NCBI GenBank assembly: GCA_023663725.1
Contig: JAMPGX010000009.1
Span: 56,584 to 120,583 of the forward strand
Length of the DNA stretch: 64,000 nucleotides
Source of the DNA: a bacterium
Lineage (GTDB): Bacteria; Bacillota; Clostridia; Lachnospirales; Lachnospiraceae
Direction of reading: 5' to 3'
Positions 58,714-60,807 of this stretch are shown here, one piece after another. Below the pieces are notes generated by a model that was given only the letters and a program-made list of their open reading frames with translations, searched no databases and was not told the DNA's origin. Made by a program: the position numbers and the translations under genes. The stretch's first letter is position 1, and the number at the start of each line of letters is the position of its first letter.

Positions 58714-58741
58714 AAATCGGTCTGACGGGCAAAATAAAAAT

Positions 58742-58773
58742 ACAACATTTTATTGCAAAATGTTGTATCCTGT
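58742..58773 (-). repeat. Left inverted repeat of the recombinase cassette
   Basis: The 32-bp sequence is the reverse complement of 59463-59494 with one mismatch. It is itself a crossover-type site: 8-bp perfect arms ACAACATT/AATGTTGT (10 here) around a 9-base spacer TTGCAATAA, the form bound by tyrosine recombinases. Confidence 0.85.
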
Positions 58774-58840
58774 CTGGTTATTCTATATATCGGCACATAT
58801 TTTATTCACTTAACCCCTTTTATAAAAAATTTTAAATTTC

Positions 58841-59419
58841 TTATAAACGAATATTGGTAAAGACATCATCCTTATCGTCCTGATCAATGCAGAGATAGCG
58901 CATGGTGATCCGGTACGAGGAGTGATTATAGATATTCATCAGGACTGCGGGCGGTACTCCGCTCTTCCAGGCGTGATAGCCAAAGGTTTTGCGAAGGGAA
59001 TGACAGCTGATATGGTCAGGCAGATCGGACTTGGCCGCTGCTTCTCGAATGATACGGTAGGCCTGGTGCCGATCAATAGGCCTTTTTCCCCTTACACTCT
59101 CAAAGATATAATCAGCCGGAGCCGGACACTTTGATCTGTACCAGCAGATAAGCGCCTCTCTCAGAGCCGCATTGATAATCACCATTGTGGTCTTTCCAGT
59201 CTTTTGCTCTGTGATTTCAACATGTGACTTCAAGTGATGTCTGTCAAAATCATATACCGTATTCCAACGTAAATGCAAGATGTCGGTGATTCGAAATGCC
59301 GTGTTCAACCCCATGATGATAAGCAGCCGGTTGCGCTGGGCAAGGGGAGTGGAACAGGTATAGTAATTCTTCAGGCGGGACAATTCTTCCAGGGTTCTGA
59401 TAGGCTGCGTAGTACTCAT
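58841..59419 (-). CDS. FimB/FimE-sized tyrosine recombinase
   Basis: A 192-residue site-specific recombinase. Catalytic residues are Arg43, Lys76, His140, Arg143 (HSLRKTF), His166 (YNHSSY) and Tyr175, all present and spaced almost as in E. coli FimB. This small size, with little N-terminal arm domain, is typical of invertases such as FimB, FimE and HbiF. AGGAGGTTTTT precedes ATG 59419. The gene is enclosed by inverted repeats at 58742 and 59463, so it may flip its own segment. A phage integrase is less likely given the size and lack of neighbouring phage genes. Confidence 0.88.
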   Translation of the reverse strand: MSTTQPIRTLEELSRLKNYYTCSTPLAQRNRLLIIMGLNTAFRITDILHLRWNTVYDFDRHHLKSHVEITEQKTGKTTMVIINAALREALICWYRSKCPAPADYIFESVRGKRPIDRHQAYRIIREAAAKSDLPDHISCHSLRKTFGYHAWKSGVPPAVLMNIYNHSSYRITMRYLCIDQDDKDDVFTNIRL

Positions 59420-59462
59420 AAAAACCTCCTTTTTGGTCAAAGCCAGTTTCATTTGCAATTCT

Positions 59463-59494
59463 ACAGGATACAACATTTTGCAATACAATGTTGT
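59463..59494 (+). repeat. Right inverted repeat of the recombinase cassette
   Basis: Matches the left repeat at 31 of 32 bases in opposite orientation: arms ACAACATT/AATGTTGT with spacer TTGCAATAC. It lies 44 bases before the recombinase start and 58 bases before csrA. Confidence 0.85.
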
Positions 59495-59552: not shown

Positions 59553-59822
59553 ATGTTAAGAATGTCTGTGAGTACAGAGGAATACTTGATGATCGGTGAT
59601 AACGTCAAGCTGATCTTTCTGGGAGGCACCGGAAATCATCTGCGGATTATGGTGGACGCTCCCAGGGATATCAACATCGTCAGAAGCTCTGTACTGGAAA
59701 AAAATATGACGCCGCAGGAGCGGGAGAGGATGCCCAGATATTATGCGGAGCCCAAACCCGCAGGCAGGTATCTGAAGCCCCGATCACAAAGTGCAGGGTG
59801 CAAAAAGGCCGGAGCAGAGTAA
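59553..59822 (+). CDS. csrA: CsrA translational regulator with C-terminal extension
   Basis: An 89-residue RNA-binding protein. The CsrA core is clear: MIGDNVKLIFLGGTGNHLRI and VDAPRDINIVRSSVLEKN, though the first strand (MLRMSVSTEEYL) differs from the usual MLVLTRK. About 25 extra residues follow. In Gram-positive motile bacteria CsrA represses flagellin translation; a consensus site covers the flagellin ribosome site here. GGGAGG precedes ATG 59553. fliW, its usual antagonist, is not in the window. Confidence 0.88.
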   Translation: MLRMSVSTEEYLMIGDNVKLIFLGGTGNHLRIMVDAPRDINIVRSSVLEKNMTPQERERMPRYYAEPKPAGRYLKPRSQSAGCKKAGAE

Positions 59823-59845
59823 AACGGCACGGCAAAATCTGATAA
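59820..59845 (+). promoter_or_regulatory. Sigma-28-type promoter of flagellin
   Basis: TAAA, 14-base spacer and TCTGATAA (consensus GCCGATAA, 6 of 8). The -35 is the csrA stop codon itself. The leader to the flagellin ATG is about 130 bases. Confidence 0.58.
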
Positions 59846-59968
59846 TAACCGTTGGCAGGGAGATATCTGTCAGGGCCCGATGGAGGAACCCCGCGATGGT
59901 TACTATAAAACACAATTGAATAGGGAACTCGTAGACAAAGCAGCTGACGCAAACGGATTTGCGCAGTA

Positions 59969-59985: not shown

Positions 59986-60807
59986 ATGGTAGTACAACAC
60001 AATCTCAGAGCAGTGAATTCCAACAGAATGCTTGGCCTGACAGCTTCTTCTCAGTCCAAGTCCACCGAGAAGCTTTCTTCCGGCTATAAGGTGAACCGCG
60101 CGGCGGATGATGCGGCGGGCCTGGCCATATCCGAGAAGATGAGGAGACAGATCAGAGGTCTTACTCAGGCATCCCTGAATGCCCAGGACGGCATCTCCTG
60201 CGTGCAGACGGCGGAGGGCGCTCTCAACGAAGTGCATGATATGCTGCAGAGAATGAACGAGCTGGCAGTTAAGGCGGCTAACGGCACGAACCAGTCAGAG
60301 GATCGGGATTATATCCAGAAAGAGATCACCGCTCTGACAACGGAGGTTGACAGAGTTGCCAAGACAACAACCTTCAATGAGAGAATGCTGTTAGACGGCA
60401 GCCTGAATGTCGATCTGCAGGTAGGTGCAGAAGGCGCAGAAGGCAATCAGATCAATCTGACGATTACAGCGATGGACGCGGCTGGATTGGGTATTGAGGG
60501 ATTGGATATCAGTGGTGATGACGGCGAGAACGGTAAGGGCGCTATCGATACCATCAAGACGGCTATTACTAAATTGAATGAACAGCGTGCCGATCTGGGC
60601 GCAATCCAGAACCGTCTGGAGCACACCATCAACAATCTGGACAATGTTGTGGAGAACACCACAGCGGCGGAGAGCCAGATCCGTGACACGGATATGGCCA
60701 CCGAGATGGTGAAGTATTCCAACAACAATATCCTGGCACAGGCTGGTCAGGCGATGCTGGCACAGTCCAACCAGGCGAACCAGGGTGTGCTGTCTCTGCT
60801 CCAGTAA
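59986..60807 (+). CDS. hag: Flagellin
   Basis: A 273-residue filament protein. The N-terminal D0/D1 part (MVVQHNLRAVNSNRMLGL, KLSSGYKVNRAADDAAGLAI) and C-terminal part (ATEMVKYSNNNILAQAGQAM, ending SLLQ) are complete; the variable middle is short. LQRMNELAVKAANGT overlaps the segment recognised by TLR5. Translation is probably controlled by CsrA and transcription by sigma-28. The assembly genes are not in the window. Confidence 0.95.
   Translation: MVVQHNLRAVNSNRMLGLTASSQSKSTEKLSSGYKVNRAADDAAGLAISEKMRRQIRGLTQASLNAQDGISCVQTAEGALNEVHDMLQRMNELAVKAANGTNQSEDRDYIQKEITALTTEVDRVAKTTTFNERMLLDGSLNVDLQVGAEGAEGNQINLTITAMDAAGLGIEGLDISGDDGENGKGAIDTIKTAITKLNEQRADLGAIQNRLEHTINNLDNVVENTTAAESQIRDTDMATEMVKYSNNNILAQAGQAMLAQSNQANQGVLSLLQ

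Follow-up and report, generated by a model that had tools for sequence, protein, structure and literature searches.

The Salmonella H segment holds within itself the gene for Hin, a serine recombinase that works with an enhancer, and its outward promoter drives fljBA, in which FljA is a post-transcriptional regulator. In the fim switch of Escherichia coli, the FimB and FimE recombinase genes lie outside the invertible promoter segment. Flagellin in Bacillus subtilis is under CsrA–FliW–hag control, and CsrA sites typically take the shape of a hairpin with GGA in its loop. The flagellins of Lachnospiraceae are abundant gut antigens. Hin is treated in PMC11868660, CsrA–FliW–hag control is cited in PMC3720852, and the latter text gives TAAA-N15-CCGATAT as a general consensus for flagellin promoters in related gut bacteria. 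According to PMC7446863, the RecV flagellar switch of Clostridioides difficile is an element of 154 bp, located upstream of the flgB operon, that acts after transcription initiation. How Lachnospiraceae commensals vary their flagellins is little described in the open-access papers searched; among the matches listed we found no prior description of the module reported here in the open-access literature, which is not proof of its absence in print.

Here, we describe a short segment bounded by inverted repeats, located before a csrA-family gene and a flagellin gene in a 64,000-nt stretch of a Lachnospiraceae genome (assembly GCA_023663725.1, contig JAMPGX010000009.1; this whole stretch is the window). 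We consider it very probably an autonomous, OFF-biased phase switch of a flagellin operon, in which a segment-borne recombinase would move a sigma28 promoter. The features of the locus are as follows.

58742..59494, no strand: predicted invertible segment, 753 bp, bounded by inverted repeats
58742..58773, + strand: csrA-distal putative recombination site (left inverted repeat, from the repeat search); an outward (- strand) hairpin is possible, followed by a U-rich tract
58787..58813, - strand: putative sigma28 (FliA) promoter, TTAA-N16-CCGATAT, close to the inner edge of the csrA-distal repeat and directed left, out of the segment and away from csrA-flagellin
58841..59419, - strand: tyrosine recombinase of 192 aa inside the segment, from the ATG at 59419 to the stop at 58841
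59463..59494, - strand: csrA-proximal putative recombination site (right inverted repeat), with a weaker hairpin and without a U tract
59553..59822, + strand: CsrA-family paralogue with a C-terminal extension (89 aa; Pfam CsrA)
59840..59911, + strand: stem-loop in the csrA-flagellin leader, the window copy placed by eye
59948..59963, + strand: hairpin CGCAAA-CGGA-TTTGCG, a CsrA-type site (GGA in the loop), its GGA 31 nt before the flagellin ATG
59986..60807, + strand: flagellin (273 aa; Pfam)

For the recombinase, the ATG was taken from our reading of the sequence; the list of open reading frames gives an upstream TTG. The protein matches Pfam Phage_integrase (PF00589) with an E value of 4e-24, and the solved structures that best match its sequence are Xer-type enzymes. 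R43, K76, H140, R143, H166 and Y175, which we take to be the catalytic residues of a tyrosine recombinase, are invariant in the 17 proteins aligned, and in this respect the preliminary description, which had credited the protein with all of its catalytic residues, holds. Against the two NCBIfam subfamilies of tyrosine-type DNA invertases (PRK09871 and PRK09870, presumably corresponding to FimE and FimB) it scores 51.6 and 38.5 bits, below the cut-offs of 222 and 221. The recombinase is a member of the tyrosine family by its Pfam profile, and by these cut-offs not one of FimB/FimE.

The two repeats are 32 nt long, complementary at 31 of 32 positions (97%) and separated by 689 nt; the repeat search found two other inverted pairs within 3.3 kb, each of 16 nt. 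The U-rich tract of the distal site corresponds to A-rich bases 58731–58741 on the + strand. With this match and with the Pfam assignments of Phage_integrase, CsrA and flagellin, the arrangement first described, a recombinase between near-perfect inverted repeats before csrA and flagellin, is borne out, as is the distance of 58 bases from the end of the right repeat (59494) to the csrA ATG (59553). An Rfam search gave one match, below the gathering score, and none that was credible.

The sigma28 promoter within the segment was absent from the preliminary description. Under a weight matrix built without it (leave-one-out), this site ranks first in the 64 kb, at 18.8 bits versus 12.9 for the next. 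Its CCGATAT is exact; the -35 element, read as TAAG with N15 or as TTAA with N16, differs from TAAA by one base. The strict TAAA pattern at N15–17 spacing has no match in the window, and a loose pattern was uninformative genome-wide (105 matches versus 73 for the reversed pattern). Beyond the segments, matches of at least 14 bits number 14 in 667 kb, and the genome of the window contains a FliA/WhiG sigma factor gene above the curated cut-off. Since the promoter points left, csrA-flagellin would be in the OFF orientation, and inversion would set the promoter directly before csrA; the present orientation of the window thus reads as OFF.

The mechanism that we propose has few steps. The recombinase encoded within the segment would recombine the two flanking core sites and so produce the 753-bp inversion. 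In the OFF state, that of the window, the sigma28 promoter would fire away from the operon and into the distal site, where the hairpin and U tract may end the transcript. In the ON state, the promoter would adjoin the proximal site and transcribe csrA-fliC, and the CsrA paralogue made in this state would tune flagellin translation via GGA hairpins in flagellin leaders. The genes, the sites, the promoter motif, the terminator-like asymmetry and the opposite orientations of homologues are read in sequence, and the recombination by this enzyme, the transcription and the target of CsrA are inferred.

Orientation was scored among relatives by a script whose input was 184 stretches (L031–L053, L095–L174, L255–L334 and the window), with shorter loci left out. 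Once exact-duplicate segments had been removed, a step that did not extend to entries lacking a repeat pair, there were 155 recombinase entries, comprising 104 that were classified, 32 that had no repeat pair at the threshold, 15 with a repeat pair but without an outward sigma28 match of at least 14 bits, and four without csrA or flagellin in reach. For several of the 15, the chosen pair is probably not the true site; among them, L132, L136, L281 and L313 adjoin csrA and flagellin, and L048, read by hand, is a case with two flagellins. Of the distinct classified segments, 99 are OFF, with the promoter pointing away, four are ON (L127, L139, L143 and L149), and one (L300) lies between head-to-head flagellins; with a stricter filter on the sites, an earlier run had given 93 OFF and four ON. 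When orientation is mapped onto a tree of the 104 recombinases, ON requires at least four changes among OFF rows; L143 sits on a poorly resolved branch, and the other three ON loci stand beside OFF relatives.

In two comparisons the whole segment is inverted, namely L127 versus L114/L135/L124 and L139 versus L174, at approximately 73–75% identity over 745–789 bases. The csrA-flagellin side is unturned, and so is a stretch of approximately 40–50 nt extending some 23 nt past the distal site; farther out, the distal outer flanks do not align convincingly. These pairs are from different species, so the inversion that their alignments show is evolutionary and not one within a culture. Opposite orientations occur at homologous loci, between species. 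As the ratio of ON to OFF is very skewed, switching may be rare or mostly locked. We also considered contig ends as a sign of mixed populations and rejected them: nine of 91 fall within 300 bp of the gene versus 2.2 expected, a figure that is confounded by the repeated flagellin genes.

A tyrosine recombinase between inverted repeats, with a PHROG integrase match, might also be a simple mobile element that landed by chance before flagellin operons, and some relatives do lie elsewhere, with no csrA or flagellin in reach. Nevertheless, repeat pairs of the same kind span the recombinase in many relatives, so that the repeats around its orthologues are more than chance, and 108 segments with such a spanning pair have csrA or flagellin as a neighbour. 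A single outward sigma28 match is found at an end of 104 of these, with none in the other four. Together with the whole-segment inversion between relatives, this makes a chance landing extremely unlikely.

The preliminary description had placed the coupling elsewhere, in the recombinase's own transcript, which on inversion would turn toward csrA with no separate promoter. Most segments would allow this, since in 90 of the 99 OFF segments the recombinase runs parallel to sigma28 and would also read toward csrA when ON. The remaining loci argue otherwise: one clade of nine OFF loci and one ON has the recombinase in the opposite direction and keeps the sigma28 promoter. This clade is one supported group (100/95), arises by one change on the tree and holds both states. 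Within the genome of the window itself, the first of two copies on contig 16 has its recombinase toward csrA and its sigma28 promoter away, so that the direction of the recombinase and that of the promoter are separable. Because the direction within the segment is not fixed, we rejected the recombinase transcript as the main driver, and regard it as a very unlikely explanation of the switch; the conserved feature is the outward sigma28 promoter. Of the original interpretation, the self-carried invertible segment upstream of csrA-flagellin stands, supported by conservation and by the opposite orientations in relatives, and the transcript as the main coupling does not.

Returning to a segment that would switch by moving its promoter, we compared the two putative recombination sites at 72 loci, these being 70 of the 80 named relatives and three of the window's own genome, minus one at a contig edge. 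Each of six central positions is identical between both sites in 71–72 of the 72 loci, with palindromic arms around them; the form first described, 8-bp arms around a 9-base spacer, is therefore approximate, with about six central bases identical in both sites. Identity of the centres within a locus is partly built in, as the repeats were found by exact seeds, but this does not apply to the asymmetry between half-sites. Among the 72 loci there are 47 different 7-nt centres, three different ones occurring in the window's own genome. Most mismatches are carried by the outer half-site, where 38, 49 and 50 of the 72 loci match at three positions, and inner half-site positions +3 to +10 match in 67–71 of 72. 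Of the two sites, the distal one is closer to a perfect palindrome in 48 of the 72 loci and further from it in six, with 18 ties; it is the outer half of the proximal site that deviates more often.

The same asymmetry appears in the predicted RNA, compared at 68 of these 72 loci. The outward hairpin has a mean of -10.3 kcal/mol at the distal site versus -6.7 at the proximal site, being more stable at the distal site in 50 loci, less so in eight and tied in ten, and more U follows the distal than the proximal site in 68 of 68. A scan for consensus terminators, which required at least three G-C pairs, called no terminator in the window, the distal site included. In our reading, the distal site would end the misdirected sigma28 transcript in the OFF state, and the proximal site would be kept permissive for ON.

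A rival account is that of a relic, a segment that flipped in the past and is now locked OFF in most lineages, its repeats persisting for some other reason, such as a terminator-like distal site. The outer half of one site does differ from that of the other at several positions, OFF outnumbers ON by 99 to four, and a copy on contig 13 of the window's own genome has decayed and has a truncated csrA. Several findings make this account unlikely: among the matches listed, a single row in the genus search and a single row in the family search lack an open recombinase frame; the presumed catalytic residues do not vary among the 17 proteins aligned; the centres match within loci and differ between them; and the tree has four separate origins of ON. 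We further considered whether a sigma70 promoter located immediately beyond the distal site, by which the recombinase would be expressed only in ON, might explain the OFF bias. This candidate was not supported: the mean best score was 8.04 versus 7.75 for shuffled sequences, and scores of at least 10 of 12 outside the distal site occurred in one of 72 loci versus 2.3% of shuffles.

By sequence, the putative switch is a recurrent Lachnospiraceae module and not a single case. The window's own genome has three intact modules, one in the window and a further two on contig 16 (L031 1293–2201 and 4644–6669), all OFF, with sigma28 pointing away from csrA. Around the decayed copy on contig 13, no flagellin was seen within the 14 kb fetched. 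Another observation is that the decayed module at L032 6336–7250 has its sigma28 promoter toward the truncated csrA and adjoins, by eye, glycan or LicD-type genes. Within the window's genus, 45 of the 138 genomes searched encode such a recombinase (E ≤ 1e-25); the family sample gave 30 of 397 genomes (E ≤ 1e-60; 29 of 334 genera), and the class sample 23 of 391 (E ≤ 1e-40). The genome of the window is part of all three tallies, which refer to recombinases and not to complete modules. The named relatives (the best 80 of 450) are mostly Lachnospiraceae, for example Acetatifactor, Petralouisia muris (its strain NM01_1-7b, a cultured commensal, carries the module at locus L129) and Eubacterium sp. 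14-2, and the recombinases nearest to that of the window on the tree are from uncultured Acetatifactor. These genus and family counts, with the 108 segments beside csrA or flagellin, make phase variation of commensal flagellins directly testable, since reads can be mapped at known coordinates.

Several loci depart from the arrangement of the window. Tandem csrA-flagellin-csrA-flagellin arrays stand next to one switch in L124, L127 and L135. In L048 (6620–7800) and L300, a sigma28 segment lies between two head-to-head flagellins, with no csrA seen; there, inversion would swap flagellins and not switch one off. One invertible segment contains a 336-aa ORF (L031 4939–5949), of which a 91% identical copy follows the next flagellin (L031 8982–10022); it has no Pfam or NCBIfam match at E ≤ 0.001, its 'rpn' label being by eye only.

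The module CsrA scores 56.5 bits against Pfam CsrA, above the cut-off of 27, and stays below the NCBIfam CsrA equivalog cut-offs (37 versus 73 and 28.8 versus 70.1). Its C-terminal extension is relative to two canonical CsrA proteins encoded beside fliW elsewhere in the genome. A GGA-loop hairpin occurs in 76 of 86 flagellin leaders, with a median distance of 36 nt to the start codon downstream, versus a mean of six and a maximum of 11 in shuffles. By the same definition, within the window's own genome, the window leader has the hairpin, and two contig-16 leaders and one contig-30 leader do not. The CsrA product may repress flagellin, and the flagellin leader does have a CsrA-type hairpin.

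The leader also contains a stem-loop, GGUAAUAA...UUAUUAUA (window 59840–59911; leaders L095–L174), the loop of which often contains CCUAGG, CCUGGG or GGGCCC, each capable of self-pairing, perhaps as a kissing loop. It was collected in 49 of 80 leaders (47 unique) by a regular expression that required such loops, so the constancy of the loop is partly by construction. RNAalifold on 21 of these stem-loops gave two-sided changes in four of ten pairs, with a weak consensus energy.

The cell probably has, in addition, a flagellin independent of the switch. On contig 5 (L213, G000), a flagellin gene 88% identical to that of the window in the N-terminal region has two fixed sigma28 matches upstream and a leader with a GGA hairpin; no recombinase or csrA was seen within the stretch fetched.

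A wider reading, which we put forward tentatively and with more doubt than conviction, is that of a selector like Hin/FljBA, evolved independently in Lachnospiraceae from unrelated parts: a tyrosine recombinase, site centres mostly specific to one locus, a sigma28 promoter that moves, a recombination site serving also as a terminator in one orientation, and a CsrA paralogue dedicated to the module that would repress the translation of other flagellins when the module is ON. If this were true, a gut cell would bear one filament type at a time.

Compared with described systems, the locus has by sequence the features of an inverton, with flanking inverted repeats, an outward sigma28 motif inside and opposite orientations at homologous loci. 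With the FimB/FimE switch it has in common the small size of its tyrosine recombinase and the use of an invertible promoter to control a surface structure; the fim recombinase genes, however, lie outside their switch, and the window protein is far under the NCBIfam invertase cut-offs. As in B. subtilis, there is a CsrA-type GGA hairpin with a Shine-Dalgarno sequence in flagellin leaders, but fliW does not adjoin the module csrA, and the canonical fliW-csrA pairs are located elsewhere in the genome. The C. difficile RecV switch is alike in its tyrosine recombinase, its imperfect inverted repeats and its flagellar control in a clostridium; at 154 bp, that element is too short for a recombinase gene, and it controls a flagellar operon and not one flagellin.

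The likeness to Hin/fljBA is in the layout, with the recombinase within the segment and an outward promoter before a flagellin operon that includes a post-transcriptional regulator, FljA there and a CsrA paralogue here, where the drive is predicted from sequence. There are also differences. The first concerns the enzyme: Hin belongs to the serine recombinases and uses an enhancer, whereas the recombinase here is of the tyrosine (Phage_integrase) family and the promoter is, by its motif, of the sigma28 type. The second is in the organization, as here the regulator gene comes first, three modules are present in one genome and the switch is OFF-biased. The module would therefore work like Hin/fljBA without being a member, its recombinase being of another chemistry; it looks like a separately evolved counterpart to the classic flagellar switch and an instructive convergence with the Salmonella system.
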